From NCBI GenBank assembly GCA_030710605.1, contig CP092865.1, positions 139,585,505 through 139,649,504 of the forward strand: DNA of 64,000 nt, written 5' to 3'. Each line of letters opens with the position of its first letter. The first letter of the stretch is position 1. Positions 244 through 60,986 of the stretch are shown one piece after another. A program made the position numbers and the translations under genes. The notes beneath the pieces are model-generated. The model searched no databases. It saw only the letters and a program-made list of their open reading frames with translations, and was not told where the DNA came from. The stretch comes from Cordylochernes scorpioides (lineage: Eukaryota; Arthropoda; Arachnida; Pseudoscorpiones; Chernetidae).

Positions 244-261
244 CTTCCCCTTAATCAGATT

Positions 262-3909: not shown

Positions 3910-3970
3910 AATAGAATTCTTTTTAGGCTTACCGTTGCTTTGTTTTTATTATATTTCGCAGTGAATGCGT

Positions 3971-4962: not shown

Positions 4963-5041
4963 CTGGAACACCACCACGGCGGCCCTCGCTACTGGACTCT
5001 AGCTCTGCCGGCACAGGGAGCATGTATGTCACCCAAGGTAC

Positions 5042-7134: not shown

Positions 7135-7168
7135 CTGGACACACAGGGAACGCCATCTATATATAGAA

Positions 7169-7641
7169 TATATATATATTGCGTATGATATTGTTTTTTA
7201 CAGCACAATACAACAATGTTGGCAAGTTTCTCTAGAGTGGAATGTCGAGGTGACGAATCCACTCCAGGGCCTCCTCTGTGCACCGGTGGATATCCCCAAG
7301 TGTTCCCTGGAAGAATCTTCGAGGACAGTCCCTTAGGATATGGTGCATTGTTTGTATTTGTCCACAGTCGCAGTTCTGGTCTGGACTCATGTTCCACTTA
7401 TTTAGTAGGTAGTTGCATCTACCAGTAGAGGTCCTGATTCTATTGAGGGTTGACCAGGTCCTCCTAGGTAGGTTGTAGCCGGGAGGTTTGGTGTTAGGGT
7501 CCTCCACCAGGTCTTTGTTGGCGATGGCAAGATTGCTCCATCGGTTTCTCCACTCTTCTTAAGATCTACATTTTCATCGGCCACCCATACAGGATTCCTT
7601 GATATTAGTCGAGTTGGGGGAGGAATTTCGAGAACAGATGA
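7169..7641 (-). mobile_element. 5'-truncated LINE fragment, only in copy 1
   Basis: Absent at the matching place in copy 2 (about 55352-55366). The minus strand (7232-7507) encodes the C-terminus of a non-LTR reverse transcriptase. It has RRTWSTLNRIRTSTGRC, then a cysteine/histidine knuckle, CDCG...TMHHILRDCP, and a tail ending EEALEWIRHLDI. This is the common arthropod LINE C-terminal pattern. Upstream codons continue in broken frames to about 7580. Confidence 0.8.
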
Positions 7642-8628
7642 TACTATTTTGTGCGATTTTTTAAAAAATAAAACAAATCCTTACTGTTCTTACTTTGATG
7701 AAAAATATTTAAGGAAATTGTCCCAATACAATATTAGAGCGGTATGGTAAATTGAACTGGCGAAACCGCTGGGATATTTTGACCTATCCACTTAGCCAGC
7801 TAAATATATCTTTGGAAAATTCTGTGAATTTCACGAATACCATGTATATTTCATGAAACCAAAGCCCGTCCTAGACTGGCGAAGGCCATTAGCCCGAAAC
7901 GATGGTCTCTAGGTAGACGTTTCTGAGTTTTCCAAAGCTGATGTAGTGAATTTTTACCGAACTGAGTCCGCTAGTTTGAGAAGGGCAATAAACGGCCCTT
8001 AGTTCAAGCATTTATTTTGACGGGAAAAGTTCTTTTTATAGATAGATCTTAGTGTTTGTATAAATTTGTGTGCGTAGGTGTATATTTATATTGATTTGGG
8101 ATCTCTCTCTCCCACGGTGGGCGCCACCAATGACGACTTGTATATATATATATATATGAATCTTTCAAAAAAATATATATGTATATTTATCAATTGTTGT
8201 ATAAATTTATATATATTTATTCATATATTTATCATTATATAATCCTATTTATTCATATATCTATACTTATTCCGTATTTAATCTTATATAATCTTATATG
8301 GACTTTGAAATAAATCAGTTTCAATCTCAATCTCTCCTGGTGGTTCTCCCGCTGATTGGCTCTTTTCAACTTCCTAGCGCCTTTTAGGTGGCACATGCGG
8401 TGTTCACACAACTACCGTTTATACGAAGGTCCAGCGCTTAGTTCAAACAGATGAGAGACGGTACAACTTCTACTGACAGTTAGTTAGTCGATGTAACACA
8501 TGTGTGAACTCACTGAACAAGTGTTGACTGAACACTCGCTGAGCATTTAAAACCGAAAGTTGGAGATTCCATGTTTTAAGGTTAAATTAGAATAAATTTT
8601 GAATCCAATCAGAAGACAAGTGTAGTTA
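7642..8628. other. MCTP intron with ribozyme-bearing repeat relic (copy 1)
   Basis: No exon. The region includes the GGCGAAACCGCTGGGA word shared by the foldback family (7755-7775), the hammerhead motif, a TATA-rich stretch at 8135-8280, and a tail with AATAAATCAGTTTCAATCTC near 8310. The equivalent in copy 2 is 55367-56342. Confidence 0.55.
7867..7919 (+). ncRNA. Hammerhead ribozyme motif, core-mutated (copy 1)
   Basis: Type I arrangement. Stem I is CCTAGA (7870-7875) with TCTAGG (7908-7913), extended by CGT/ACG (7867-7869 with 7917-7919). The core is CTGGCGA (7876-7882), stem II GGC/GCC with loop CATTA, then GAAAC (7896-7900). A two-pair stem III with loop GATG leads to the cleavage triplet GTC (7905-7907). 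The core has G where the consensus CUGANGA requires A; copy 2 has the A. Such ribozymes are known in Penelope-like elements and retrozymes. Activity is inferred only; the mutated core predicts little or none. Confidence 0.7.
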
Positions 8629-9425
8629 TACAATATGTAACAACACACCGAGGATACAAGATGTAACAACACACCGAGGATACAAGATGTAACAACACAC
8701 CGAGGATACAAGATGTAACAACACACCGAGGATACAAGATGTAACAACACACCGAGGATACAATATGTAACAACACACCGAGGATACAAGATGTAACAAC
8801 ACACCGAGGATACAAGATGTAACAACACACCGAGGATACAAGATGTAACAACACACCGAGGATACAAGATGTAACAACACACCGAGGATACAAGATGTAA
8901 CAACACACCGATGATACAAGATGTAACAACACACCGAGGATACAAGATGTAACAACACACCGAGGATACAAGATGTAACAACACACCGAGGATACAAGAT
9001 GTAACAACACACCGAGGATACAATATGTAACAACACACCGAGGATACAATATGTAACAACACACCGAGGATACAAGATGTAACAACACACCGAGGATACA
9101 AGATGTAACAACACACCGAGGATACAAGATGTAACAACACACCGAGGATACAAGATGTAACAACACACCGAGGATACAAGATGTAACAACACACCGAGGA
9201 TACAAGATGTAACAACACACCGAGGATACAATATGTAACAACACACCGAGGATACAAGATGTAACAACACACCGAGGATACAAGATGTAACAACACACCG
9301 AGGATACAATATGTAACAACACACCGAGGATACAAGATGTAACAACACACCGAGGATACAAGATGTAACAACACACCGAGGATACAAGATGTAACAACAC
9401 ACCGAGGATACAAGATGTAACAACA
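8629..9425. repeat. 26-bp tandem array, about 30.6 units (copy 1)
   Basis: Unit TGTAACAACACACCGAGGAT plus ACAAGA, with a few variants (CAATATG for CAAGATG; one GATGATAC). The array shares its boundaries with copy 2 (56343-56801), which has exactly 13 fewer units. Because the unit lacks stops in all three minus frames, long spurious reading frames result. Confidence 0.95.
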
Positions 9426-9533
9426 GGATAAGTTCCTTGTTTTATTTAAACCATCTCTCAAGCTTTCGGGTATCTCTTCTATAGGAGTATATAACGACTA
9501 AGTACAAGTTACTTATAAATATTAAAAATAAAA

Positions 9534-9950
9534 ATGACATATCCTGACCAGGAGCACGTGTGTTTTTCAGAAGGCAGAGCGCCATCTGGGGGAACAGAAA
9601 TCAACTATTCAACAACAAAAACAAAGCCTTTATTTAGGGCCTCTCGCCCTATACAGGATTCGCCAGTTCACAAGGGATGGGGAGAACACAGTGTGGTCTT
9701 TTTCCGGGATATAATCCTGTGGAATATCGCCACCGCTATATACTTATTCTTTGATATTTCATTAATTAGTGCCGGAAATGAAGGACAAAGTTGCCCCGTT
9801 TTATCATTTAGTTTTCGTCTTTCCTCAGACAGAGCAACACAATCAAATAAGTAGTGCTGAAATAAACAATTCATTGATTTAACCTGTTCCCTGATATTTG
9901 GCCAACCCAATTGCTTGATATTTTAAGAAAAGCCATCCACGAACGCTTTT
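9534..9950 (-). repeat. LINE C-terminus relic in an inverted-repeat element (copy 1)
   Basis: The minus strand at 9668-9910 has a LINE-like C-terminal string (LFQHYLFDCVALSEERRKL), reminiscent of the conserved Cys/His region after reverse transcriptase. The outer part (GGAGCACGTG, AGAGCGCCATCTGG) resembles the arm of the foldback at 28364-28612. Present in both copies. Confidence 0.4.
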
Positions 9951-10189
9951 CGCGCTGTTGGCGCTCGTCAGTGTGAAGTAGGCTGTACCACTGCGACCAA
10001 AAATAATTTTGGTCCCAGAGGCTTCCTGAAAAACCAAGAAATGTGTATTTATGGCCAAACTTTCGTAAATACGCTCAACACATGAAAAACAATAGAAAAA
10101 ATAAAAAATCAATACCTGACCTTTTTATTTTTTTCTATTGTTTTTTCACTTATAAATCATAGAAATTCTCTGAGGGAAGAATTTCTTTT

Positions 10190-10372
10190 TATATAACGGC
10201 AATACAAGCTTTTGGGCTCAACAGACAGGTATAACTACACTACTAAAATTTAGAGAGATGTTAAACACATCCATATATATATATATAAACAAAGACATTT
10301 TCTAAAATGTTAGTAGCGTAGTTATCTGTCGAAGAGCTGTTACTCTCGAAAGCTTGTATTACCGTTATATAT
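10190..10372. repeat. Imperfect foldback element (copy 1)
   Basis: ATAACGGCAATACAAGCTTT at the left pairs with AAAGCTTGTATTACCGTTAT at the right, with further imperfect pairing inward. The right arm has a hammerhead-like CTGTCGA...CGAAAGCTTG string. A further short inverted repeat lies at about 10407-10472. Copy 2 equivalent: about 57566-57747. Confidence 0.6.
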
Positions 10373-10532
10373 AAATAAAATATAGAAAGTTGGAATCCTC
10401 TGATGAGTATAAGTAAAATATTTGAAGCGTAAGTTTAAAAGAAAAGTATCCTCGTACGCTTCAAATCTTTTACTTATATATAAATAAACTTTTCCCTCAA
10501 TGAATTTTATTTTATTTATAATTTTATCGAAA

Positions 10533-10730
10533 AGGTTATATAAGGTTGTCCCAAAAGTTCGTGTTTTTCTTAAAACATTTTTATTATTACATGGTGAATA
10601 CATAATAATACATAATACAATTACTTTATACATGAAACAAAGACATTATATATAACGGTGAATAAAATTATGGCGAATAATATTGGTATTTCAATTTTTT
10701 GCAAGTGTTTACGATCTTTTGGGACAACCT
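10533..10730. mobile_element. Mariner-like MITE (copy 1)
   Basis: About 198 bp with terminal inverted repeats AGGTTGTCCCAAAAG / CTTTTGGGACAACCT, preceded by TA. No coding. The copy 2 equivalent has one changed base in the left terminus and a small internal duplication. Confidence 0.8.
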
Positions 10731-10745
10731 TGTAACTTATAAATA

Positions 10746-10947
10746 CAGTAAAACCTCTCTGTAATGGACAACACCTAGTTGCAGAGCCAAAGTGTCTTTT
10801 AGGGAGAGGTATCCTCTTACTAGAGAGTCGCTAAATAGTAATTTTGGAGAGTCGCTAAATAATAAAGATGATATTTTTGGCGATGAAAACCGTCCTTTAT
10901 AGAGAGATGTCCTCTAGCGTAAGTGTCCTATCATGGAATTTCTACTG
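10746..10947. mobile_element. Tigger/pogo-like MITE (copy 1)
   Basis: Begins CAGTAAAACCTCTCT after TA and ends in a decayed TTTCTACTG followed by T. Contains a local repeat of AGAGTCGCTAAATA. The terminus type matches pogo/Tigger elements; a clearer example is at 24775-24905. Confidence 0.55.
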
Positions 10948-11071
10948 TCTTTTTGGTTTAAATATACTCGGATTTTTTACCGTTGGGTGTGCAACTGTGA
11001 GCTAATGTTCTAGTTTTGTTTTTATCCCCAGCACAGCTGGGGTGACTACACTCGGGGAGTGGATCACTCAC

Positions 11072-11403
11072 TTCTCAAGTTCCAGCTGGGTGAGATCCAG
11101 GTTGGCCACACCGATGAAGTCATCCTTGCATACGAAGTCATAGTCGTACACTCGGAAGGAGAGTGGCTGGAAGACATCGTCGATGGGCACACAGAAATAC
11201 TCGTCCCACACAGGATTGAGACAGCGCGAGATTGTCCGGCTCTTGTAGAGCTGTCGGGAGCTGGACTTGATTTTGACGTAGGGATCACTGGTCCCACAGG
11301 CATCCTTTGCCGGGAAATTCTGTCCACAGCGGAGATGAACGTCCAACTGGTAGAACGGATGTTTTCTCAGCACGGCGGCGTGATGGCGGGCCAGTGCATT
11401 CTC
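11072..11403 (-). CDS. Mctp: MCTP exon: C2A domain (copy 1)
   Basis: 332 bp between a TTTCAG acceptor and a GTGAGT donor, leaving in phase 2. It encodes nearly the whole first C2 domain: HPFYQLDVHLRCGQNFPAKD, DACGTSDPYVK (loop 1 aspartates), LYKSRTISRCLNPVWDE, then FRVYDYDFVCKDDFIG (loop 3 aspartates) and LDLTQLELEK. All five calcium-ligand aspartate positions are acidic, so calcium binding is likely. The sequence matches the MCTP family rather than synaptotagmin because it joins the TQEDKE linker and a second C2. Seven silent differences and no amino-acid change from copy 2. Upstream exons are not recognised in the window. Confidence 0.92.
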
Positions 11404-12460
11404 CTGAAACATCACAACAGTGAGATATATTGCACATACTTCAGCAAAACATTGTATACACCCTGAACCTAGTCGCAAATGGAAACTTCATTGAATTCAA
11501 TCCCTATCATTCCGATCCAATTAGTCTATGTTACACTTCGGTACTACCATAGCTCTCTCCAGAACAGAATGGTGATGAGATCAGGAACGTATTCAAGAGA
11601 AATTTCTAATGAAAACTATATACGAAATTATGACGACTCGCTCCCAATATGTTGTCTACTAACAGCTCAGATACACCAACCTTGGCATCAAACATGTAAA
11701 AGCCCATTAATCAATCATTCACGGTGTCCATTACAAAGATTACAAACTGGGGAGAACGCCAGATCGTTATTTCCAGAGTTATACGAACTGAGCTTGAACA
11801 GAAGAAGACATCGACGGGATACAGGGTTGAGAGGATAATCTCTAAGCAAAACTTCAGGAAGAAGAGCTTCTTTTCGAACAGAAGAAGGTAAACAATTCTA
11901 TGTTAACAAATAAAGACTGAAATAGCCAATACAATTCAACCATTCGCTGTTATCCTAGCAGAATATGTTACTGAAGTGGTTGAAGAAAAATTGAAGTTTT
12001 CTGGGTAGTTTCTTTGATAGATAACTTGTACCTTATTTGCATATTTCTTCTTCAATACGTCTAAGGCTGTATCTCTCACGGAATCCACGATGACAGCGCG
12101 ACTCGTGTAAAGTCACTACAGTTATTCAAATGACGGATTGCTGAAAACGAATCTTTTATATAGAAATTGAACACTATATAATAAAAATACTAAATCAAAT
12201 TAAGAAGATAAATCGATCGAAGAGATGCGACACACACACACACACATAAATTCCTTGTTTTAAACTACTGTATTGGAAACTAAATGCTGGAAGTTAGTAA
12301 AACAAAAGAACAAACACCTATTACTGGAGATTATATGTACTTACCATCGATATCTTCATCTCAATCTACAAACTCAGAATTCCAATCAGCCCGAGGAGAT
12401 CTATATGTTTGAAAACTGTGCAAAGAGTTAGTGTAAAAAGAACATATGTTATTATTATTA
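11404..12460. other. MCTP intron, unassigned (copy 1)
   Basis: I see no gene; short open frames are not conserved in form. It contains a (CA) run at 12230-12245. Collinear with 58798-59869 apart from small indels. Confidence 0.5.
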
Positions 12461-12632
12461 TATAAAAGGGCGTACCTGGATCTGTAAAGAAAAAAAAAAA
12501 ATTTTATCTTAAAATATTTCGAGAGATTGCTCCCTCTTTATCAATTTACTGCACAGAGGGAGCAATCTCTCGAAATATTTTAAGATAAAAATTGTTTTTT
12601 TTCTTTACAGATCCAGGTACGCCTTTTTATAT
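12461..12632. repeat. Foldback element with ~75-bp arms (copy 1)
   Basis: AAGG(G)CGTACCTGGATCTG on the left pairs with CAGATCCAGGTACGCCTTT on the right. The arms continue through AATATTTCGAGAGATTGCTC and its complement around a short loop. Copy 2: 59870-60043. A decayed relative starts near 32925. Confidence 0.85.
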
Positions 12633-13012
12633 AATCTTAATTAATGGATCGTCTTTTGACTCAAATATGTTATTATGTAAATATGAATCCCATTTCAAAA
12701 ACCTAGTTATAAAATGTAGATTAACTTTGTTGCCAGGCATCATGAAAAATCATGAAACGGGTAGTTGAGACCAGAATTGCGCGAGAACGCGAATCAATGT
12801 GAAAATGTTATTGTGTAAGTATGAATCCCATTTCTAACCTAGTTATGCAATATAGATTAACTTTGTTGTTCTTGTGGGAAGGTTCTCGGGAAAATAAACA
12901 TTAATTATATATATATAGAGAGAGAACTTGATCAAGGTCTCCTCGTCGGTTTATATAAATTCTACAAGACCGCAGTCACCGTTCGGAGGAGATTAATGGA
13001 TTCGCCGAATGT

Positions 13013-13460
13013 AATGCAAAGCATAAAAATAGCTAGAGAACTAAAGAACTTCGGCATCCGCACTTACTTTTCCAACACCCCTAATATAGGCACTATCTTA
13101 AGGAACCCTATTACTAAAGACAACACACCTCGGAACACTCTTCAAAGAAACAATGCTGTTTATTCCATAAAATGCAACGATTGCGACAGTGTTTATGTAG
13201 GTGAAACTGGCCGTTACATTAAAGACAGAATACAGGAACACGACAGAAACATAAGACATAACGATCCGAAATCACTTATTGTCCAGCACATATCACAGAC
13301 AGGACATAGTTTCAACACAACTGATCCAAGATCACATTATTCTAACATACCACATAAACACAAAAGATTGGTTGTCGAGGCCTTGCTATCTCTGAGATAT
13401 AATAGTATAAACAGACATATTGATGTACCTGAGCCGTATATAAGCTTATTACATAAATAG
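13013..13460 (+). pseudogene. Penelope GIY-YIG endonuclease, truncated unit
   Basis: Only the C-terminal endonuclease domain is present. AVYSIKCNDCDSVYVGETGR holds the GIY-YIG-like pair and the Cys pair typical of Penelope endonucleases, followed by IKDRIQEHDRNIR and FNTTDPR. The open frame begins upstream at 12996 in flanking DNA, so its Met is not native. Nearly identical to 15834-16277. Confidence 0.88.
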
Positions 13461-13796
13461 CCATCGATGTACCCCATGAATTCCCTGTTTTGTCCATTTA
13501 TTTTAATATCCTTTTAAACAGTTTTACCTTATAAATATTCATAATTTTATCACAGTTTCCGTCGAACCGTGGGAACGTCCTTTTGGTCTTATTACGCTTT
13601 TATCTTAATACCTTGTAATATTCGTATATTACTCTTCTTAACAAATTTTATTAATTTGCTTATGTCTCGATATTCTTTTTAAACAAAAATCCTAAGTATT
13701 ACCGATTATTTAAAAAATTTTACAACTAATTCTAATAATACATATGCAGATTTATTCTTCGTGTATATAGTGTATCATTTTTCTTATACATTTGAT

Positions 13797-13839
13797 CCTG
13801 TAGAAGGGCCACGCTGTGCCCGAAAGCTTGATGTCCTAA
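13797..13839 (+). ncRNA. Hammerhead-like motif in Penelope tail (first unit)
   Basis: CTGTAGA, a GGGC/GCCC stem, GAAAG and a later GTC follow the order of a type I hammerhead. The core has T for A, and the stem III pair next to GTC is G-G. Probably a decayed ribozyme. The second unit repeats it near 16614-16656. Confidence 0.4.
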
Positions 13840-13894
13840 TAAAGTGTTGAAAGAAACTCATCTCTCGAATATTTTGTCCTTACCACGCATGTAA

Positions 13895-14542
13895 TTGGGA
13901 AGATTTTACCGTTTTAGAAATCTTAAATACTGTTTTTATTTTGCTTGTCGCACTATGGATCCTGATACACGTTTCTACATGAAGAACCTCCTCAAAAAAT
14001 CACTTGCGTTGGCAAAATGGAAGAAGCATCTTGCCTTTAACAAAATATGCGAAAACCAAGGATTCATTCCTCCATCTTTGCGTATGAAAGATCCGATCGG
14101 CAATCACTACTCCGCCAAAATCATCACAGAAACTCATTTTAAGCTACTACGAGCCCGCACTAAAGGTTGCTATTCACACATCCGTATCCTCACAAAATCA
14201 GTTAAAGGCCTCCTATTTCACCTGTCCATGCGTTTAACAGTTCAAGACATGGCTGATTTTCTTAGAAGAACCACAGAAAACATCAAAAAGCAAGATATTA
14301 CCATTACAGCTAGACATAATAAGAAACTAACACATTGGTCCAAAAAATATAACTTCAAACTCGCGCCGAACAATGCCCTACAAACAATAGTGAATCTCTC
14401 TAGTTTCCAACCTACTACAGAGCATATAAACATATTATCTAAAGGACTTAAATATAGACCTCAAGCTAAAGCTGATGCCATAACAATCATAGCAGGGGTA
14501 GAATCTTCCATTTTCCGCTTAAAACCATCAAGAGAAGTTTAG
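13895..14542 (+). pseudogene. Penelope N-terminal region, frame 1
   Basis: 215 codons, basic, lacking a motif I can name; position and spacing match the N-terminal part of a Penelope polyprotein before its reverse transcriptase. A Met at 13954 (MDPDTRFYMKN) is an equally good start. A frame break separates it from the reverse transcriptase stretch. Confidence 0.65.
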
Positions 14543-14618
14543 AATCAGACAGCACACCGCAGCAGTCCTTAGCGACCACAACCAAACCCAACATACCTAC
14601 CATATTAACAAAAATGTA

Positions 14619-15695
14619 TTGCGCTCACTAACAACGAACAAAGATATAACCATCACTAGATCTGATAAAGGTTCGCTTACAGTCATCATGAACACATCCG
14701 AATACATTTCCAAGATGGACACAATCCTTGCTGACCCGCTCACGTTTACCCCCATATCCATAGATGATCAGAATACCGCAACCTCTTCTTTTAAAAAAGA
14801 AATCAACAATCTGCTGAGGAAGAAAATCATTAGTTCCGAAGAATGCAAAAAATTTTTGTCCAATATAATGTCAAAAGCTTATATTTACGGCCTACCTAAA
14901 TTACACAAAGAAGGTATCCCACTAAGACCCATCATCGCGTACCACCTCTCCCCTGCAGCTCCGTTAGCAACTTATCTAGCCAAAATACTGGCCCCGATGC
15001 TCAGAGATAGTGACTCCCCGACGACCATTTCCTCCATTCCTGTCTTCATAGGTAAGTTACAACAAACAACAGTTACACCTGGCACCATCATGGTCTCATT
15101 CGATGTTGTTAATTTATATCCCAGTCTCCCCCACCAGCTTATTTTAGATTGCACCACAGAATTTCTAATTAAACAAGGTTGCCCCACAGACACCATTTCC
15201 AAACTCATTGCACTTATCAAAATCAGTCTTTGCCATAGTATTTTCAAATTCAACCAAGCTTATTTCAAACAGACCAAAGGCACCCCTATGGGTAGCCCAT
15301 TATCCTCTCCCCTTTCAGAAATAGTGATGCGCAAGATAGATAAACGTATAGTTAATATCTTCCCAGACGACATTTTAATCTGGTCTAGATACATAGATGA
15401 CGTCTTTGCTATAATCAAAATTAACGCCTTTAATGATATACTCAACACATTGAATAATTTCTATCAAGACATAGACTTTACTTCCGAGACTGAAACATGT
15501 GACTCTTTGGCATTTTTGGACATACGCATAACAAAAACATGCAATAGATATAATACTGAAGTCTATTATAAACCCACCTTTCACCCAATGTATATAAACT
15601 TCTCATCTTTCTGCCCATTAAGCCATAAAATCAATACGGTAAGAACCTTGTCCAAGAGAATATATACCCACTGTAACACTGAGGAGTCAAAGTAA
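14619..15695 (+). pseudogene. Penelope reverse transcriptase
   Basis: 358 codons with the Penelope RT series in order: ITRSDKGSLTVI, YGLPKLHKEGIPLRPI, VSFDVVNLYPSLP, KGTPMGSPLSSPLSE, the catalytic RYIDDVF, and LDIRITK followed by YYKPT. Penelope RTs are related to telomerase and prime from a nick made by their GIY-YIG domain. An in-frame TAA at 15693-15695 separates it from the endonuclease, and a frameshift separates it from the upstream part, so the copy is not intact. Confidence 0.93.
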
Positions 15696-15725
15696 AAGGA
15701 AACAAATAACATAATTACAAATTTA

Positions 15726-16277
15726 ATGTCCTCTGGTTATCCTAAAAACTTTATTTTAAGGCATTTCCATAACCCATCCCGCACCAAGATATATGACAAC
15801 TATAAATCCATCTGCACAATACCATATTCCTTGCAAAGCATAAAAATAGCTAGAGAACTAAAGAACTTCGGCATCCGCACTTACTTTTCCAACACCCCTA
15901 ATATAGGCACTATCTTAAGGAACCCTATTACTAAAGACAACACACCTCGGAACACTCTTCAAAGAAACAATGCTGTTTATTCCATAAAATGCAACGATTG
16001 CGACAGTGTTTATGTAGGTGAAACTGGCCGTTACATTAAAGACAGAATACAGGAACACGACAGAAACATAAGACATAACGATCCGAAATCACTTATTGTC
16101 CAGCACATATCACAGACAGGACATAGTTTCAACACAACTGATCCAAGATCACATTATTCTAACATACCACATAAACACAAAAGATTGGTTGTCGAGGCCT
16201 TGCTATCTCTGAGATATAATAGTATAAACAGACATATTGATGTACCTGAGCCGTATATAAGCTTATTACATAAATAG
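15726..16277 (+). pseudogene. Penelope GIY-YIG endonuclease, long unit
   Basis: In frame with the RT after the stop. It starts with the connecting segment (SSGYPKNFILRHF) and then has the full endonuclease domain with VYSIKCNDCDSVYVGETGR. Ends HIDVPEPYISLLHK before a 3' untranslated tail. Confidence 0.9.
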
Positions 16278-16703
16278 CCATCGATGTACCCCATGAATTC
16301 CCTGTTTTGTCCATTTATTTTAATATCCTTTTAAACAGTTTTACCTTATGAATATTCATAATTTTATCACAGTTTCCGTCGAACCGTGGGAACGTCCTTT
16401 TGGTCTTATTACGCTTTTATCTTAATACCTTGTAATATTCGTATATTACTCTTCTTAACAAATTTTATTAATTTGCTTATGTCTCGATATTCTTTTTAAA
16501 CAAAAATCCTAAGTATTACCGATTATTTTAAAAAATTTACAACTAATTCTAATATTACATATGCAGATTTATTCTTCGTGTATATAGTGTATCATTTTTC
16601 TTATACATTTGATCCTGTAGAAGGGCCACGCTGTGCCCGAAAGCTTGATGTCCTAATAAAGTGTTGAAAGAAACTCATCTCTCGAATATTTTGTCCTTAC
16701 CAC

Positions 16704-17010
16704 GAATGCAAGCTATCAAACGTAGATCTTGTACATTTGTAAAGGCAGAAGTCGAACTGATTTATATATCATGAAGATAAAGGCTGCCTGGCCGGCATTT
16801 CATAGTTCTTAAAATTGAAAGATACTTCGGCCAGTGAATTTTTTTATTATAATAAAAATATTTATACTGGCCGAAGTATCTTTTCATTTTAAGAACTGAT
16901 TTATATATGTGTAGACATGTGGTACACTTACAGTAAAAGTAGTTGCCACCTACCCACCATGATTATCATAGCTAGTACCACGTGTACTAGAGAAAAACAA
17001 ACACTTCTAC
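16704..17010 (+). repeat. SINE-like repeat carrying a small foldback insertion
   Basis: Homologous to 62088-62297. GAACTGATTTATATAT occurs on both sides of an inserted foldback (about 16776-16897) containing AGATACTTCGGCCAGT and its complement. The same insertion with the same duplicated flank occurs in the copy 2 side, so it predates the split of the copies. Here the repeat tail continues (ACATGTGGTAC, CATGATTATCAT), giving the empty site of the LTR element at 62298. Confidence 0.75.
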
Positions 17011-48130: not shown

Positions 48131-48570
48131 TATATATATATATATATAGATGGCGTGCTATTGGCTTATATTTACTATAGGGGGTTGTCATATAAATATC
48201 GGCTACAAATATCTACAAATGAAAACATTGATACACGAATGTTTCTTTTCACAAATAAATCAAACTTCTACTGTCCTTAGTGCGATTAAAAATATTAGGA
48301 AGGCTTGGTTCATCAATAGTGAATCCTCCCAGCGGTTTCACCAATTCAATCTACCAGACCGCTTCTCTAGAGCAGGGGTCTCCAAACTTTCCAGCCTTAG
48401 GGCCATACTGATGGGGTCTTTCCAGCCTTAGGGCCATACTGATTACTCCAGTAAGTTCCGAGGGCCAAGATGGCAACACTGCATATTATTAATTTTCCTG
48501 TATTAATTGTTATGTTTATTTGTTATTAAATGTTATTATTAATTGTTGCTTTTGTGTGTGATTTAGCAGA

Positions 48571-50034
48571 ATGGAAAAAAAGCGAAAAATTGATAGTGAA
48601 TGCAGAAAATTCAAAGATCAGTGGAACATTCAGTATTTCGTAATTGAGTCCAGTAACAAGGCGCTATGTTTGATTTGCAATGAAAGCATAGCCGTTCTCA
48701 AAGAATATAACATGAAACGTCATTATGAAACAAAACATTCTCAAAATTACTCAAAATATACAGGAATTGTGCGGACAGAAAAATTCGAAGCTTTGAAGCG
48801 CGGATTGAAATCGCAGCAATCTTTATTTACAAAAGTCAAAACTGAACAAGAGGCGGCAACTCGTGCCAGCTTTCGTGTGGCTCTTGAAATTGCAAAACGT
48901 GGAAAACCATTCACCGATGGAGAAATGATCAAGGAATGCATAATTGCAGTAGTCGAAGAAATGTGCCCTGAAAAGGTAAATTTATTAAAAACTGTCAGTA
49001 TGTCAGCAAACACTGTGGCTCGAAGGGTAGAAAACATCGCTGAAAATATATCCTCTCAACTGTTCGACAAAAATGGACATGTTGAGTGGTTTTCTTTGGC
49101 CTTGGATGAGTCAACGGATGTGTCAGATACTGCTCAGGTGTTGATTTATATTAGAGGAGTAGATAAAAGCTATGAAGTGCACGAAGAACTTCTTGATATG
49201 TATAGTATTCATGGCACAACTACTGGTACCGATATTTTTAAAGGAGTTGAAATGGCCATTAATAAAAAGAACCTTCGATGGAAAAACTTGAAATGTATTA
49301 CAACTGATGGAGGCAAAAACATGAGTGGGAAAGATAAAGGAGTGGTCGCTCTTGTGTCAAAGGCTGTAGAAAATGACGGCGGCTCAAAACCATTAGTCTT
49401 ACATTGTATCATTCATCAACAGTCTTTGTGCGGAAAATGTTTGGATATGTCTGACGTTCTGAAACCAGTCATATCAACTGTTAATTTCATCAGATCTTTT
49501 GGGCTAAATCACCGACAATTCCGACAATTTATTGCAGAGATTGGAGAAACAGACTTACCTTATCATACTGCCGTACGCTGGCTTAGTTGTGGGAAAGTCC
49601 TTCAGCGCTTTTTTGAACTTCGAGCAGTGATCGAAATTTTTTTGAATGAAAAGCACCGCCCTCTTACTGAATTACAAAACAACGCATGGCTATGGAAGTT
49701 AGCATTCTATGTTGATTTGACAAAACATGTGAACGAACTGAATTTGAGATTGCAAGGAGAAAACCAGCATCTTCCTGATTTATACACTAATATCAAGTCA
49801 TTCCGGATGAAATTGATACTGTTTCAATCACAACTACGAAGTAAATGTTTTTCACATTTTAAAACATGTGAAATATTCAGCCACACTACTGAGACTGAGT
49901 TTCCTATCGATTTTGCAATCGAAACTTTGAGTGCTTTGAAGATAAATTTTGATACTCGTTTCTCGGATTTGATGCCATTGCGAATCAAATTAAGATTTTT
50001 CAGAATCCTTTTGATGCTGACATTGAAACCCTAG
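48571..50034 (+). pseudogene. hAT transposase, main part
   Basis: 487 codons. An N-terminal zinc-binding motif (CLICNES...HYETKH, about residues 33-57) resembles that of GTF2IRD2/ZBED-like hAT proteins. It is followed by the RNase-H-fold core: first Asp in SLALDESTD (about 177), second Asp in ITTDGGKNMSG (about 245), LHCIIHQQSLCGK (C/H motif) and TAVRWLSCGKVL (RW motif). The frame is lost shortly before 50034 by a one- or two-base indel; the dimerisation region continues in another frame. Confidence 0.92.
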
Positions 50035-50048
50035 CCCCGGAACTTCAA

Positions 50049-50366
50049 ATGGAAATGATTGATCTTCAGTGCAGTGATATAATTAAGAACAAATATGAAA
50101 ACTCATCTTTGTTGGAATTTTATAAGAGTCTTCCACTGACACAATTTGATAATTTGCATAAATTTTCTCGTGGGCTGTTTTCCGTTTTTGGTACTACTTA
50201 TTTGTGTGAGAAAACCTTCTCCAAAATGAAGTACACAAAAAATGTATACAGATCTAAATTAACTGACGAGCATCTTAAATCTCTTTTAATAATTGGTACA
50301 AGTAAAATTAGTCCACAACTACAAACTATTGTCGGTGGAAAATCTCAATTACATACATCTCATTAG
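50049..50366 (+). pseudogene. hAT transposase C-terminal dimerisation domain
   Basis: 105 codons continuing the transposase in a shifted frame: LQMEMIDLQCSD, SLLEFYKSLP, then FGTTYLCEKTFSKMKYTKN and SKLTDEHLKSLL, the conserved hAT C-terminus with the catalytic Glu in CEKTF. Ends in a stop before a 300-bp 3' region. Confidence 0.9.
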
Positions 50367-52432: not shown

Positions 52433-53066
52433 CTGCGCCACACATTCACAGTTCATCAAAAGTTCAACACCGAAGACGATGACGACAACATTGAAAAGCA
52501 ATAGCTAGGGCTTTGTTGACCGTCGTCTGTTAGAGCGAAGACAAACTTTGATGAGATTGTTTCTAATCCCCACTGAATAAATTTATTTCATCTTGGTATA
52601 TGTTCCGTTAGCAAAGGAAACCTTTTCATTGTTGGTCTTCAACTATGATGGATGTCTATGTTAGGCTTCACGTTCATTTAGAAACCATTCTACATGTGGC
52701 AACCACATTGTTCATTTTACCTTTGTTGGCCTTCCACTGTAGCACATGCCATTGTTATTGCTACGTTACATTAGAGTCGTTTTACATGTAATAATCAATT
52801 GTTCTTACCTTTTATTATCTTTGTTAGGCGCCACTTTACATTATTAGAGTAAATTTTATTTGTGAAATCACTATTGTTATCAATTTTGTTGATGTTCGAC
52901 TACAGCGAACATCATTTTTAGATTACCACGTTACATTAAAGTTCACTTTATATATGTGAAAACAATATTATTCTAATCTTTGTTGGCCTTCCACTGAAGT
53001 GCATGTTATTGTTAGGTGCCTCCCCCCACGTTACATTAGATTTAAAAGACAACCTAAGACACTCAC

Positions 53067-53387
53067 GTAGCGGTTGGCCAGGGCCATCCTGGACGGAAGA
53101 GCGGAGGCCTGGTAGGCTTGCAGGTCGGTGACGGGCCGCAGGGTGCCGGAGATGGTCAGAAGTAGGAAGACCTCGCCCGCCCCGCCGTCATGGCTCAGGT
53201 CCATCCTGATCTGGTGCGTGGTCTCGGGCTTGAGGGTGTCCAGGTTGAGCTGGCAGCGGCCCATGAAGTCGTCCTTGCCGTGCGTGTCGTGGTCCCACAC
53301 CGACACCTCCAGCACGCGCGGCTGGTCCGGGTACAGATGCAGGTCGAACTGCTCCAGCCACTGCGGGTTCAGCGTCTTGGGGCAGTA
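53067..53387 (-). CDS. Mctp: MCTP exon: C2B C-terminal half (copy 2)
   Basis: Same 107 residues as the copy 1 exon, including WDHDTHGKDDFMG. One silent change. Flanked by TTCCAG acceptor and GTGAGT donor, followed 634 bp later by the C2C exon, which makes this copy the better candidate for the intact reading order in this window. Confidence 0.92.
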
Positions 53388-53466
53388 CTGGAACACCACC
53401 ACGGCGGCCCTCGCTACTGGACTCTAGCTCTGCCGGCACAGGGAGCATGTATGTCACCCAAGATAC

Positions 53467-53655
53467 CTTACTCTTGTACTTCTCGGAGCCGAGCCGGAAC
53501 TTGACGTAGGGATCACTCAGTCCGTTCTCGTCCATTGGCAGGAGGTCCTTGCCCTCCACCAGGACTATGGTCACCACGTGCTCCCAGAGCTGGATCTTCT
53601 GCTTCTTGGCAGCAGCTGAGGAGGAGGTCTCTCCACGTCCGCCCTTGCCGTAGTA
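53467..53655 (-). CDS. Mctp: MCTP exon: C2B N-terminal half (copy 2)
   Basis: Same 63 residues as copy 1 (silent Leu and Gly differences). The donor reads GTATCT here and GTACCT in copy 1. Followed by the same 79-bp intron, 53388-53466. Confidence 0.9.
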
Positions 53656-55216
53656 CTGGCCACACCACCATCTGTTAGCTCTTTCATGCAATGTATTGCT
53701 TCACTGTCGCTGCTTCTGTATCAAAGATGTTACATGAGCACACAAGTTGATAAAGATCTCTCTTCACGACTCTTTTTTATTTACCTTCATGCATCATGGA
53801 GAAAAAGCAAGTCACAGAAATGGAGATCAAGACTTGACTACGTCTGCCAACTGGGCTTCTTCCTGATTGGTCCATCTGTTGCCCCCTGGTCCACAGGTGG
53901 TGGACGGCTTTAGCCACCTTCAGACGTCATCGTAATAATATTGATTGTTATGAATCTAAAGAGGCCCCCTTCTTTCTTTGAAAATACGTTAACACGACGT
54001 TTTTGGTTTATCATCCCAGTGCTGTGGTACATTCTTTGTCACCAACTTCATGTTAAACAATGGTACAATAAGCAAAAATGAATTGTTTTAATGTATTTGT
54101 CCACCCGTGTGTGTGTCTACCCGTGTGTACCTAAATTTGTAGTACTCCGTAGACAGTAACTGTAGTCACCATTGCAGAGTTCACTGAAATATCTCCAGAT
54201 GACCTCCAGAGACACTACGCTGAAGAAGACAGATCGTTTATTTGATCGACGATATTTTTGAAGGAGAAATTATTATGGAGCCAAAACACAGCCAATTTTT
54301 ACCCCTATAAATTAATACAACAGACGGGGAATATGTAGAAAACAATTTATAATAAAATAAACAAAAGTCACTTATCCAGAGTACACGTGGTACAAATCAT
54401 GATAATCATGGCCATATTAGCGACAGATTTCACTGTAAGTACACCACATGTTTACACATGTGGAAATCAGTTCAAATTTTGCACTTACAAGTATGCCAGA
54501 ACCCCATTTAGTTATTTGCCTTCACTCATTAGGTTAGACTATTGAAATAATAGGGAGCCATTTGAGCAATTGGAATTTGGAAAAGCTCCAGGCTGCGTCT
54601 GGTCGAACTGTCCAATCAAATTGAATCAGAGTCACGTGCTGGAGTTATATTTGGGATCGATGGAATAGGCTAGCATCTCTACTCTACGGGGAGTCGTGTC
54701 AACGATGCGTCAGAGATGTTAGCTTTTGGTTTCTAAATAAGTTGTTTATCCTGGATGCCTCACTCTGTCTCAACTATTGTTTGGTATATATATATCTCTT
54801 ATTTGATACTCAACCAAATATACAATTGGGGATAGCAAGTTAGAAATTACGACGTATTATATATGTCATGTATATTGTCGCGTGTTTCGCCCGGTCCTTT
54901 ATACACAACGCCACTTCTTCCCGTGGATCACCAGTCATGACGTCGTTGCCTCCCCTCGGTAGCTTTTGGATCCTGAACACGTTCTATCACTTCTAGTTTC
55001 CAAAACAATGACAGTTTCTCGAACGCAGTCGCCGTGTGACTCGTGAAGCGCTTCGTTCGACCCGAGGAAATCGGCCAAAATCTTGAAAAGCGTCATCTGT
55101 TAACGGATGTTGTAACTGTTTTCTTTTCTAGGACAATATTCGTAACACTATATATATGTATACGAAGAACATTATATATTAAAGGGAAAATAATAAAATT
55201 AAAAGCTTTCGCTCAC
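53656..55216 (-). other. MCTP intron (copy 2)
   Basis: Collinear with 5231-7025 but shorter by the 183-bp repeat deletion at 54571/54572 and one fewer microsatellite repeat. No exon seen. Confidence 0.7.
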
Positions 55217-55325
55217 CAGCTCTTTGTCCTCCTGTGTCTTGGGGGTGAGGGTGACGGTGATTTGAAGGGTGCCGCAGCTCCCTGAGCCGTCCAGGTCTGT
55301 CAGCTGCAGGATCATGTCGGTGGGT
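55217..55325 (-). CDS. Mctp: MCTP exon: C2A end and linker (copy 2)
   Basis: 109 bp, same protein as copy 1. The upstream intron is undisturbed here: no LINE sits near the acceptor, so splicing signals are as inherited. Confidence 0.92.
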
Positions 55326-55590
55326 CTGGACACACAGGGAACGCCATCTATGTATAGGGAATTGAACTATTTTGTGCGATTTTTAAAAAAATAAAACAAC
55401 TCCTTACTGTTCTTACTTTGATGAAAAAATATTTAAGAAAATCGTCCCAATACAATATTAGAGCGGTATGGTAAATTGAACTGGCGAAACCGCTGGGATA
55501 TTTTGACCTATCCACTTAGCCAGCTAAATATATCTTTGGAAAATTCTGTGAATTTCACGATTACCGTGTATATTTCATGAAACCAAAGCC

Positions 55591-55643
55591 CGTCCTAGAC
55601 TGACGAAGGCCATTAGCCCGAAACGATGGTCTCTAGGTAGACG
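55591..55643 (+). ncRNA. Hammerhead ribozyme motif, canonical core (copy 2)
   Basis: Core CTGACGA at 55600-55606 fits CUGANGA. Stem I is CCTAGA (55594-55599) with TCTAGG (55632-55637), plus a CGT/ACG extension across a three-base bulge. Stem II is GGC/GCC with loop CATTA, then GAAAC (55620-55624), loop GATG and GTC (55629-55631); cleavage would follow base 55631. The weak points are an A-C mismatch at the base of stem II and a very short stem III, which is usual for minimal Penelope-type hammerheads. It lies antisense to MCTP, so it would act only in a plus-strand transcript. Confidence 0.8.
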
Positions 55644-56342
55644 TTTCTGAGTTTTCCAAAGCTGATGTAGTGAATTTTTACCGAACTGAGTCCGCTAGTT
55701 TGAAAAGGGCAATAAACGGCCCTTAGTTCAAGCATTTATTTTGACGGGAAAGGTTCTTTTTATAGATAGATCTTAGTGTAAATTTGTGTGCGTGGGTGTA
55801 TATTTATATTGATTTGGTATCTCTCTCTCCTGCGGTGGGCGCCACCAATGACGACTTGTATATATATATATGAATCTTTTAAAAATATATATGTATATTT
55901 ATCAATTGTTGTATATATATTTATATCTATTTATTCATATATTTATCATTATATAATCCTATTTATTCATATATCTATACTTATTCCGTATTTAATCTTA
56001 TATAATCTTATATGGACTTTGAAATAAATCAGTTTCAATCTCAATCTCTCCTGGTGGTTCTCCCGCTGATTGGCTCTTTTCAACTTCCTAGCGCCTTTTA
56101 GGTGGCACATGCGGTGTTCACACAACTACCGTTTATACGAAGGTCCAGCGCTTAGTTCAAACAGATGAGAGACGGTACAACTTCTACTGACAGTTAGTTA
56201 GTCGATGTAACACATGTGTGAACTCACTGAACAAGTGTTGACTGAACACTCGCTGAGTATTTATTACCGAAAGTTGGAGATTCCATGTTTTAAGGTTAAA
56301 TTAGAATAAATTTTGAATCCAATCAGAAGACAAGTGTAGTTA
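55644..56342. other. MCTP intron (copy 2), repeat relic
   Basis: Matches 7920-8628. TATA-rich stretch at 55855-55990; no exon. Confidence 0.5.
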
Positions 56343-56801
56343 TACAATATGTAACAACACACCGAGGATACAAGATGTAACAACACACCGAGGATACAAG
56401 ATGTAACAACACACCGAGGATACAAGATGTAACAACACACCGAGGATACAAGATGTAACAACACACCGAGGATACAAGATGTAACAACACACCGAGGATA
56501 CAATATGTAACAACACACCGAGGATACAAGATGTAACAACACACCGAGGATACAAGATGTAACAACACACCGAGGATACAAGATGTAACAACACACCGAG
56601 GATACAAGATGTAACAACACACCGAGGATACAAGATGTAACAACACACCGAGGATACAAGATGTAACAACACACCGAGGATACAAGATGTAACAACACAC
56701 CGAGGATACAAGATGTAACAACACACCGAGGATACGATATGTAACAACACACCGAGGATACAAGATGTAACAACACACCGAGGATACAAGATGTAACAAC
56801 A
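56343..56801. repeat. 26-bp tandem array, about 17.6 units (copy 2)
   Basis: Same unit and same edges as 8629-9425, 338 bp (13 units) shorter. Confidence 0.95.
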
Positions 56802-56909
56802 GGATAAGTTCCTTGTTTTATTTAAACCATCTCTCAAGCTTTCGGGTATCTCTTCTATAGGAGTATATAACGACTAAGTACAAGTTACTTATAAATATTA
56901 AAAATAAAA

Positions 56910-57320
56910 ATGACATATCCTGACCAGGAGCACGTGTGTTTTTCAGAAGGCAGAGCGCCATCTGGGGGAACAGAAATCAACTATTCAACAACAACAACAA
57001 AGCCTTTATTTAGGGCCTCTCGCCCTATACAGGATTCGCCAGTTCACAAGGGATGGGGAGAACACAGTGTGGTCTTTTCCCGGGATATAATCCTGTGGAA
57101 TATCGCCACCGCTATATACTTATTCTTTGATATTTCATTAATTAGTGCCGGAAATGAAGGACAAAGTTGCCCCGTTTTATCATTTAGTTTTCGTCTTTCC
57201 TCAGACAGAGCAACACAATCAAATAAGTAGTGCTGAAATCAACAATTCATTGATTTAACCTGTTCCCTGATATTTGGCCAACCCAATTGCTTGATATTTT
57301 AAGAAAAGCCATCCACGAAC
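56910..57320 (-). repeat. LINE C-terminus relic in inverted-repeat element (copy 2)
   Basis: Counterpart of 9534-9950; differs by single bases. Confidence 0.4.
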
Positions 57321-57565
57321 GCTTTTCGCGCTGTTGGCGCTCGTCAGTGTGAAGTAGGCTGTACCACTGCGACCAAAAATAATTTTGGTCCCAGAGGCTT
57401 CCTGAAAAACCAAGAAATGTGTATTTATGGCCAAACTTGCGTAAATACGCTCAACACATGAAAAACAATAGAAAAAAATAAAAAATCAATACCTGACCTT
57501 TTTATTTTTTTCTATTGTTTTTTCACTTATAAATCATAGAAATTCTCTGAGGGAAGAATTTCTTT

Positions 57566-57747
57566 TTATATAACGGCAATACAAGCTTTTGGGCTCAACA
57601 GACAGGTATAACTACACTACTAAAATTTAGAGAGATGTTAAACACATCCATATATATATATATAAACAAAGACATTTTCTAAAATGTTAGTAGCGTAGTT
57701 ATCTGTCGAAGAGCTGTTACTCTCGAAAGCTTGTATTACCGTTATAT
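57566..57747. repeat. Imperfect foldback element (copy 2)
   Basis: Counterpart of 10190-10372. Confidence 0.6.
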
Positions 57748-57919
57748 ATAAATAAAATATAGAAAGTTGGAATCCTCTGATGAGTATAAGTAAAATATTT
57801 GAAGCGTAAGTTTAAAAGAAAAGTATCCTCGTACGCTTCAAATCTTTTACTTATATATAAATAAACTTTTCCCTCAATGAATTTTATTTTATTTATAATT
57901 TTATCGAAAAGGTTATATA

Positions 57920-58124
57920 AGGTTGTCGCAAAAGTTCGTGTTTTTCTTAAAACATTTTTATTATTACATGGCGAATAATATTATTACGGCGAATACATAA
58001 TAATACTTAATACAATTACTTTATACATGAAACAAAGACATTATATATAACGGTGAATAAAATTATGGCGAATAATATTGGTATTTCAATTTTTGCAAGT
58101 GTTTACGATCTTTTGGGACAACCT
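57920..58124. mobile_element. Mariner-like MITE (copy 2)
   Basis: Left terminus AGGTTGTCGCAAAAG (one change from copy 1); right terminus CTTTTGGGACAACCT. Internal ATTATTACGGCGAAT duplication accounts for the extra length. Confidence 0.8.
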
Positions 58125-58139
58125 TGTAACTTATAAATA

Positions 58140-58341
58140 CAGTAAAACCTCTCTGTAATGGACAACACCTAGTTGCAGAGCCAAAGTGTCTTTTAGGGAG
58201 AGGTATCCTCTTACTAGAGAGTCGCTAAATAGTAATTTTGGAGAGTCGCTAAATAATAAAGATGATATTTTTGGCGATGAAAACCGTCCTTTATAGAGAG
58301 ATGCCCTCTAGCGTAAGTGTCCTATCATGGAATTTCTACTG
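58140..58341. mobile_element. Tigger/pogo-like MITE (copy 2)
   Basis: Counterpart of 10746-10947. Confidence 0.55.
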
Positions 58342-58465
58342 TCTTTTTGGTTTAAATATACTCGGATTTTTTACCGTTGGGTGTGCAACTGTGAGCTAAC
58401 GTTCTAGTTTTGTTTTTATCCCCAGCACAGCTGGGGTGACTACACTCGGGGAGTGGATCACTCAC

Positions 58466-58797
58466 TTCTCAAGTTCCAGCTGGGTGAGATCCAGGTTGGC
58501 CACACCGATGAAGTCATCCTTGCATACGAAGTCATAGTCGTACACTCGGAAGGAGAGTGGCTGGAAGACGTCGTCGATGGGCACACAGAAATACTCGTCC
58601 CACACAGGATTGAGGCAGCGTGAGATTGTCCGGCTCTTGTAGAGCTGTCGGGAGCTGGACTTGATTTTGACGTAGGGATCACTGGTCCCACAGGCATCCT
58701 TTGCCGGGAAATTCTGTCCACAGCGGAGATGAACGTCCAACTGGTAGAACGGATGTTTTCTCAGCACAGCGGCGTGATGGCGAGCCAGGGCGTTCTC
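58466..58797 (-). CDS. Mctp: MCTP exon: C2A domain (copy 2)
   Basis: 332 bp encoding the same residues as 11072-11403 with seven silent differences (in Asp, Ser, Cys, two Ala, Asn and Ala codons). TTTCAG acceptor and GTGAGT donor conserved. As the gene is read on minus, this is the first recognised exon in the window. Confidence 0.93.
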
Positions 58798-59869
58798 CTG
58801 AAACATCACAACAGTGAGATATATTGCACACACTTCAGCAAAACATTGTATACACCCTGCACCTAGTCGCTCATAGAAGCTTCATTGAATTCAATCCCTA
58901 TCATTCCGATCCAATTAGTCCTATGTTACACTTCGGTACTACCATAGCTCTCTCCAGAACAGAATGGTGATGAGATCAGGAACGTATTCAAGAGAAATTT
59001 CTAATGAAACTATATACGAAATTATGACGACTCGCTCCCAGTATGTTGTCTACTAACAGCTCAGATACACCAACCTTGGCATCAAACATGTAAAAGCCCC
59101 ATTAATCAATCATTCACGGTGTCCATTACAAAGATTACAAACTGGGGAGAACGCCAGATCGTTATTTCCAGAGTTATACGAACTGAGCTTGAACAGAAGA
59201 AGACATCGATGGGATACAGGGTTGAGAGGATAATCTCTAAGCAAAACTTCAGGAAGAAGAGCTTCTTTTCGAACAGAAGAAGGTAAACAATTCTATGTTA
59301 ACAAATAAAGACTGAAATAGCCAATACAATTCAACCATTCGCTGTTATCCTAGCAGAATATGTTACTGAAGTGGTTGAAGAAAAATTGAAGTTTTCTGGG
59401 TAGTTTCTTTGATAGATAGCTTGTACCTTATTTGCATATTTCTTCTTCAATACGTCTAAGGCTGTATCTCTCACGGAATCCACGATGACAGCGCGACTCG
59501 TGTAAAGTCACTACAGTTATTCACATGACGGATAGCTGAAAACGAATCTTTTATATAGAAATTGAACCCTATATAATAAACGAATACTAAATCAAATTAA
59601 GAAGATAAATCTAGATATATGAAAAATCGATCGAAGAGATGCGACACACACACATAAATTCCTTGTTTTAAACTACTATATTGGAAACTAAATGCTGGAA
59701 GGCAGTAAAACAAAAGAACAAACACCTATTACTGGAGATTATATGTACTTACCATCGATATCTTCATCTCAATCTACAAACTCAGAATTCCAATCAGCTC
59801 GAGGAGATCTATATGTTTGAAAACTGTGCAAAGAGTTAGTGTAAAAAGAACATATGTTATTATTATTAT
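58798..59869. other. MCTP intron, unassigned (copy 2)
   Basis: Matches 11404-12460. Carries AATCTAGATATATGAAAAATCG, not in copy 1, and a shorter CA run. Confidence 0.5.
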
Positions 59870-60043
59870 ATAAAAGGGCGTACCTGGATTTGTAAAGAAA
59901 AAAAAAAACATTTTTTTTCTTAAAATATTTCGAGAGATTGCTCCCTCTTTATCAATTTACTGCACAGAGGGAGCAATCTCTCGAAATATTTTAAGATAAA
60001 AATTGTTTTTTTTTTCTTTACAGATCCAGGTACGCCTTTTTAT
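59870..60043. repeat. Foldback element with ~75-bp arms (copy 2)
   Basis: Counterpart of 12461-12632, with longer A and T homopolymers. Confidence 0.85.
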
Positions 60044-60347
60044 ATAATCTTAATTAATGGATCGTCTTTTGACTCAAATATGTTATTATGTAAATATGAA
60101 TCCCATTTCAAAAACCTAGTTATACAATGTAGATTAACTTTGTTGCCAGGCATCATGAAAAATCATGAAACGGGTAGTTGAGACCAGAATTGCGCGAGAA
60201 CGCGAATCAATGTGAAAATGTCATTGTGTAAGTATGAATCCCATTTCTAACCTAGTTATGCAATATAGATTAACTTTGTTGTTCTTGTGGGAAGGTTCTC
60301 GGGAAAATAAACATTAATTATATATATATAGAGAGAACTTGATCAAG

Positions 60348-60986
60348 GTCTCCTCGTCGGTTTATATAAATTCTACAAGACCGCAGTCACCGTTCGGAGG
60401 AGATTAATGGATTCGCCGAATGTCATGGTCCATTTGGATGAGGAAAGCGAAGACTAGAACGCGGCTGATTCCACACTAGCCTTTTCAGTGATACGCTAAC
60501 CTTGACGTACGAAAGGTGGAATCTGTGGCTACTGGACATGCGTCGGACCTGGAGGCTGTGGTTGGGTTCTAGGTTGCCTGGAGTATAGAAGCGCCATCTA
60601 TGCTTCCTTTCTTCCTGTGGTTAATCTATATAAGATCGGTGGTCTTAATAAAGTTTTGTGTGTGCTGTGTATATACAGAAAATTTTATTAAGACCACCGA
60701 TATTATACAGATTCACCACAGGAAGGAAGCATTGATAGAGCTCCTATACTCCAGGCAGCACAGCACCCAACAACAGCCTCCAGGTCCGACGCATGTCCAG
60801 TAGCCACAGATTCCACCGTACATACGTTAAGATTAGCGTATCATCGAAAAGGCGAGTGTAGAATCAGCCGCGTTCTAGTCTTCGCTTTCCTCATCCAAAT
60901 GGACCATGACATTCGGCGATTCTATTAATCTCCTCCGAACGCGGTAACTGCGGTATTGTATAATTTATATGAACCAACGAGGAGAC
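60348..60986. repeat. Long palindrome, 639 bp
   Basis: Arms 60348-60657 and 60679-60986 are inverted repeats at roughly 90% identity around a ~20-base centre (GTGTGTGCTGTGTATATACA). Neither arm has a gene. Copy 1 retains only the outer part of the left arm (to 13012), where the Penelope element begins. Confidence 0.92.

Follow-up and report, generated by a model that had tools for sequence, protein, structure and literature searches.

Insertion scars like those of Penelope-type retroelements point to the kind of enzyme that may move a pseudoscorpion retrozyme

The locus

The window, meaning the whole stretch of DNA analysed here, comprises 64,000 nucleotides of contig CP092865.1 from the pseudoscorpion Cordylochernes scorpioides (assembly GCA_030710605.1). 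An MCTP-like region lies in it twice, at 4186-13016 and 52613-60427, in the same orientation and with about 97% identity, and represents either a tandem segmental duplication or two uncollapsed haplotypes. Within the second of these regions, C2-domain exons are found on the minus strand at 53031-53423, from coding and domain evidence, and at 58462-58881, for which Pfam was run on the near-identical copy at 11068-11487; the best match of the gene that bears a name is that of a locust. On the plus strand, between these exons, lies a nearly full copy of a retrozyme, about one 319-bp unit in length (55498-55780, ends approximate), and within it a type I hammerhead motif (55591-55643). Its counterpart in the first MCTP-like region, likewise on the plus strand, is a second hammerhead copy at 7867-7919 inside a retrozyme copy whose approximate ends, 7774-8056, were transferred from 55498-55780. 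The position antisense to the MCTP-like gene that a sequence-only reading had proposed for the motif is borne out, since the C2-domain exons are on the minus strand and the motif is on the plus strand.

A Penelope-like element (PLE) occupies 13015-16711 on the plus strand, with GIY-YIG and RT in several separate frames (domain and frame evidence) and with 880-bp direct repeats at 13015-13894 and 15832-16711 that are 99.3% identical. A Copia-type LTR retrotransposon lies on the minus strand at 147-4185, where it is bounded by identical 97-bp terminal repeats and contains a frame (1184-3451) with rve and RVT_2 domains. Frames at 48562-50366, with a Spin-doc zinc finger and a DUF4371-like stretch below the Pfam cut-off, probably represent a hAT-type transposase derivative.

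The hammerhead motif

Read from the bases of the plus strand, the window copy consists of a stem I 5' strand CCTAGA (55594-55599), the core CTGACGA (55600-55606), the core GAAAC (55620-55624), GTC (55629-55631), and a stem I 3' strand TCTAGG (55632-55637), with the cut predicted between 55631 and 55632. CTGACGA, GAAAC and GTC thus lie where the earlier reading had put them, and they give the core CUGANGA / GAAA / NUH around three helices with an open stem I. The six perfect pairs and the bulged extension claimed for stem I are present as well, the extension being CGT/ACG beyond a 3-nt bulge, and stem III is AC/GT, two base pairs with a 4-nt loop. Stem II comprises only the three pairs GGC/GCC, because positions 10.1 and 11.1 at its base are A.C, and this closed pair is missing in both window copies, the paralog included. 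In a relaxed hammerhead scan of both window strands, 55591-55643 was the sole site without a core mismatch, and the second copy, at 7876, had one: its core A6 is G (CTGGCGA), and with A6 lost it is predicted to be inactive. The word canonical, as applied to the motif before, consequently suits most members of the family but neither the window copy, with A.C at the base of stem II, nor the paralog, with A6 changed to G. The ribozyme of the window copy is predicted to be, probably, a weak one.

The MFE structure of the window-copy motif is a different hairpin, and its folding energy is no better than that of shuffles (z -0.48). MFE folds are weak evidence on this copy, however, because the hammerhead fold came within 2 kcal of the MFE in 0 of 54 distinct family motifs; the MFE structure of the reference copy is likewise not the hammerhead fold. 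Rfam gave no match at the gathering threshold over the whole window, none at E<=10 in 241 bp, and no hammerhead match at the motif in 12 of 12 family loci tried, in which weak sub-threshold HH9 matches lay away from it. Given that the family motif was missed in all 12 loci, well-formed relatives included, the negative result says little about the window motif, and the covariance-model check suggested earlier, run with Rfam, found nothing at the motif and is powerless here. The hammerhead at 55591-55643 is real, and it is more than chance because the core pattern CTGANGARGGCCATTAGCCCGAAACNATGGTC has 4,818 + 4,936 = 9,754 exact matches in the 2.62-Gb genome, its reversed control having 0.

A high-copy retrozyme family

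Genome searches gave at least 40 matches to a 93-nt window query (40 of 2,768 candidates scored) and at least 42 to a 261-nt query (40 of 4,453 candidates scored). A sample not chosen by the hammerhead was drawn with a query taken from a part of a real copy that lacks it, which gave at least 45 matches at 40 scored places, of which 39, all but the reference locus L007 itself, were taken. The L007 unit is 319 nt long with a GC content of 48.6%, and copies are spaced in tandem at about 319 bp in L007 and L008; tandem copies that each contain a hammerhead occur in L008, L022 and L038, although sampled arms are mostly shorter than two units. The longest stop-to-stop frames measure 40 aa (window copy), 86 aa (L007 unit repeated) and 120 aa (L008 array), so that the unit appears to be free of coding signs. 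A non-coding unit within the range of about 170-400 nt, at less than 50% GC (319 nt and 48.6% here), and tandem copies with a hammerhead each are what characterise metazoan non-LTR retrozymes.

Many family copies contain a well-formed hammerhead, with a G10.1-C11.1 pair, a GGGC/GCCC stem II and a 2-bp stem III with a tetraloop. The family set comprised 111 motifs, of which 4 with gaps were dropped, and among the remaining 107 (54 distinct sequences) all 11 tested core residues are intact in 91. Pairing in other genomic copies, which had been named as a check, held up in that 93% of twelve pairs are kept over the 54 distinct sequences; compensatory change is hardly to be found, and covariation gives the hammerhead no real support because its pairs vary little. 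In the hammerhead-free sample 26 of the 28 motifs have G at position 10.1, as do, by eye, all 100 listed CTGANGARGGCCATTAGCCCGAAACNATGGTC places. A common variant with A at this position was considered, on 23 of 83 rows, and rejected, as the search query itself bore A; A is rare, being present once among the 28 motifs of the hammerhead-free sample and nowhere among the 100 listed pattern places.

The window copy is 75% identical to the reference unit over 55504-55753; of the positions compared, 59 of 217 beyond the hammerhead differ, as against 2 of 50 within it (Fisher 1.4e-4), a strong contrast, but one biased by the choice of the window for a hammerhead that reads well. Among young copies, hammerhead mismatch is 2.8% against 7.3% over unit 180-279, and the core is intact in 20 of 28 against 36% expected from the unit 180-279 rate, which is itself pushed up by 180-206, a stretch in which the reference copy is unusual. 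An excess of hammerhead conservation in young copies was accordingly rejected, the motif faring hardly better than unit 207-279 with its own mismatch of about 2-4%.

On these grounds of sequence the motif is identified as the hammerhead of a metazoan non-LTR retrozyme present in high copy number, the copy in the window being old and decayed, and the element as a newly described family within that class. The genome copies support the type I topology, the kinship with retrozymes and PLEs, and the short non-autonomous element that had been suggested from the window letters. tRNA-like sequences lie near retrozyme copies in two loci (L043, 119-189; L034, 3578-3648) and are perhaps from tRNA-derived SINEs.

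Penelope-like elements of the same genome

The PLE family of the window is large, with at least 107 matches when 106 of 29,408 first-look candidates were scored, many of them with open frames. It has a double 3' end of the same kind as the retrozyme. Within a 3'-end zone at 13886-13929 on the plus strand, where 19 of 20 sampled copies end, 11 of the 20 stop at 13886-13893 and 8 at 13914-13929, and one continues in tandem; the two positions are separated by a tail of about 32 nt, as compared with about 33 in the retrozyme. Among listed PLE places, RT neighbours less than 5 kb apart are head-to-head in 14 of 18 cases, same-strand in 4, one of which is two pieces of a single PLE copy, and tail-to-tail in 0.

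Two hammerhead-like motifs are associated with PLEs here. In the repeats of the window PLE, CTGTAGA-AGGGCC..GCCCGAAAGC occurs at 13798-13838 and 16615-16655, with U for core A6, and is kept in 5 of 6 sampled copies, those that span it fully, among which L114 is 86% identical; the remaining copy, L111, begins within the motif. At 28-62 of the window lies CTGACGA..GTCGAAACGTC, which resembles a hammerhead and has no stem I. About 290 bp 5' of it, just ahead of the window, is a frame whose parts are like RT and GIY-YIG (L136, 1-1539); frame and motif are assigned, from their sequence, to a second PLE family.

Insertion anatomy

The insertion anatomy was scored in 96 loci and the window piece, 13 duplicates having been dropped, with 176 arms in all, whose 3' ends were classed as A (unit 127-153) or B (unit 172-184), counted from the predicted cleavage site. 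Pairs of arms are head-to-head in 61 cases and tail-to-tail in 1, and 54 arms are single. Paired arms face each other by their 5' ends, and there are two preferred outer 3' ends, mostly at unit ~143-147 (A) or ~176-179 (B), about 33 nt apart and one on each arm. The outer ends of the 61 pairs are A/B in 41, A/A in 1 and B/B in 0, the remaining 19 being unclassified or cut (6 B/other, 5 other/other, 4 A/other and 4 A/cut); were ends independent and even, a count of 41 A/B among 42 classified pairs would have a binomial p of about 2e-11. Single arms end at A in 24 cases, at B in 12 and elsewhere in 18. The first 100 listed CTGANGARGGCCATTAGCCCGAAACNATGGTC places contain 11 neighbour pairs closer than 2 kb, of which 8 are head-to-head, 3 are tandem at exactly 319 and 0 are tail-to-tail.

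Flank strings of at least 7 nt, and up to 14 nt, are shared in 28 of 55 pairs with both flanks, as against 5.1% in shuffled flanks, the strings being sought within 4 nt of BLAST ends so that some element bases may be included; they are absent in the other 27. Flanks are AT-rich, at 80.5% (133 ends) compared with 64.2% for L001-L070. Inverted arms, a 30-40-bp tail on one arm and a short target-site duplication (TSD), which make up the insertion signature of PLEs, are all found in retrozyme copies.

Arm lengths within a pair are unequal, and the inner junction varies from copy to copy; a single junction, unit 274/37, was seen twice among 55 listed pairs, in L076 and L108, whose flanks are different. 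No conserved hairpin links the two outer ends (371 of 475 cells paired). In 36 loci, 28 hammerheads are spanned in full, and arms often extend past the cleavage site, which implies that many templates were uncut, religated or circular. As a trace of hammerhead cutting, arm 5' ends were considered and found unconvincing, with 6 of 62 at unit 1-10. Another 8 of 62 fall at unit 271-280 (272-277), just 5' of the hammerhead; perhaps they mark an RNA start, though the signal is too weak to claim.

Competing explanations

The likeness to PLEs raises the question of whether the copies are simply relics of the pLTR of an autonomous PLE and not a separate non-autonomous element. We consider this unlikely. 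Type I-like hammerheads do occur in PLE pLTRs (PMC7761336), the window contains or adjoins two PLE families that have hammerhead-like motifs, and the insertion anatomy is PLE-like. Against this, PLE hammerheads as described in that source are without a helix III, where the retrozyme has 2 bp and a tetraloop, and retrozyme units repeat at exactly 319 bp with no sequence in between. Comparison with one PLE family, that of the window, disclosed no sequence match to the retrozyme unit, which accordingly stands without a match to the sampled PLE. In 4 of 97 records (L012, L027, L035, L050) there is GIY-YIG-like coding of other PLE families at a distance of 0.3-1.2 kb, but it does not touch the arms, and no PLE coding was seen inside them in any of the 97; since about 3 such neighbours would be expected by rough reckoning (29,408 PLE candidates in 2.62 Gb, over 246 kb), PLE coding beside the arms is about background. 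RT and a GIY-YIG endonuclease of its own, as a PLE would have, are lacking in the retrozyme.

Somewhat more doubtful still is a retrozyme moved by a LINE, with inversions arising through twin priming. TSDs of 15 bp at sea-anemone retrozymes (PMC4918200) speak for such a route, as do variable 5' ends, which are common. Both outer ends recur, however, and 41 of 42 classified pairs join ends of different class, and a poly-A tail was not seen in the flanks inspected by eye. The site of the second priming event in twin priming is not known to be fixed. A fold-back (inverted-repeat) DNA transposon or MITE, with 8-9-bp TSDs and a hammerhead by chance, would also have arms head to head and short repeated flanks, yet we hold it to be very improbable, given a variable inner junction, unequal arms, 319-bp tandem multimers and outer ends that are non-equivalent (A/B). 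Least credible of all is that the motif resembles a hammerhead by chance, or is a domesticated ribozyme that acts on the MCTP gene. Although Rfam is negative, the MFE of the window copy is not the hammerhead and the motif lies antisense in an intron, there are thousands of genome copies, the others tried were missed by Rfam too, and in the duplicated gene the core of the paralog is broken.

A possible mechanism

The account that we prefer, and hold with good confidence, is that the window contains a decayed copy of a metazoan non-LTR retrozyme moved by a PLE enzyme through two-site, two-strand priming. The ~319-nt unit would be transcribed, and its hammerhead would cut multimers to unit length; a PLE protein would then take up the linear, circular or multimeric retrozyme RNA, and its GIY-YIG nuclease would cut both DNA strands of an AT-rich target. 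Each cut strand would serve as the primer for reverse transcription from one or other of two internal sites (unit ~143-147 or ~176-179), and the two cDNAs would join head to head, in many cases with a target duplication of some 7-12 bp. Transcription, self-cleavage, circularisation and the use of a PLE enzyme by the retrozyme are the steps that we infer. Several observations weigh against this account: the retrozyme unit has no sequence match to the one PLE family examined; two classified ends are missing in 19 of the 61 pairs and a shared flank string of at least 7 nt in 27 of 55; among the 54 single arms, 18 end outside both classes; arm 5' ends are no clear mark of the hammerhead cut; and the TSDs of sea-anemone retrozymes are LINE-like (PMC4918200).

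A more general proposition, towards which we lean with less assurance, is that animal retrozymes are non-autonomous partners of PLEs, and that a PLE dimer starts one cDNA per cut strand at two fixed sites, one for each strand, on hammerhead-processed RNA, so that nearly every two-armed insertion has one A and one B end. This one-A-one-B rule goes further than published PLE observations, since the start site of the lizard PLE is described as no different between strands (PMC11167929). If true, animal retrozymes offer an almost pure view of the PLE insertion reaction, and their copies would supply thousands of natural PLE-type insertions for dissecting that reaction. The two-ended, head-to-head anatomy can be scored in any retrozyme genome, such as those of mussel, coral or axolotl.

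Comparison with known systems

PLEs have been proposed as the movers of retrozymes (PMC7229834, PMC7761336, PMC11722881, PMC8969392), and the discoverers of retrozymes call them a strong candidate; LINEs are named too (PMC7229834, PMC11722881). LINE-like 15-bp TSDs have been reported at sea-anemone retrozymes (PMC4918200). In the openly accessible literature searched, we found no evidence from insertion anatomy for PLE mobilisation of animal retrozymes. The anatomy described here is new evidence on the question of which enzyme moves them, and its likeness to the scars of Penelope-type retroelements points to the kind of enzyme that may be responsible. Short nonautonomous Penelope elements have been described in butterflies (PMC6685494). 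PLEs have inverted pLTRs, one of which may have an optional 31-bp tail, with TSDs of 8-10 bp in some copies and none in others, according to PMC3846280. The first full-length PLE protein active in vitro was reported in 2024, from a lizard; once purified, it is described as cutting and extending both strands of AT-rich targets, with two internal RT start sites that bound a 30-40-bp tail (PMC11167929).

With the metazoan non-LTR retrozymes described by Cervera and de la Pena in 2020, the present family shares, as far as they are set out in that source, a unit of about 170-400 nt with GC below 50%, unit-length tandems, one type I hammerhead per unit, thousands of copies, and PLEs in the same genome (PMC7229834). 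It differs from them, on that description, in that many copies consist of two head-to-head arms or a single short arm, and in that insertion ends and repeated flanks are described for a family known here from DNA alone. The axolotl retrozyme HHR_Amex2 (PMC7229834) has the same stem III of 2 bp with a tetraloop, and a mismatch at the base of its stem II, U.U in the axolotl element and A.C in the window copy, whereas most of the present family has G-C at that place. Compared with PLEs, the retrozyme unit is without RT or GIY-YIG coding and shows no sequence relationship to the single PLE family with which it was compared. The head-to-head inverted arms, the tail of about 30-40 bp on one arm, the short TSDs, the AT-rich targets and internal initiation at two sites are, by contrast, features that the retrozyme has in common with PLEs as these are portrayed in PMC3846280 and PMC11167929.
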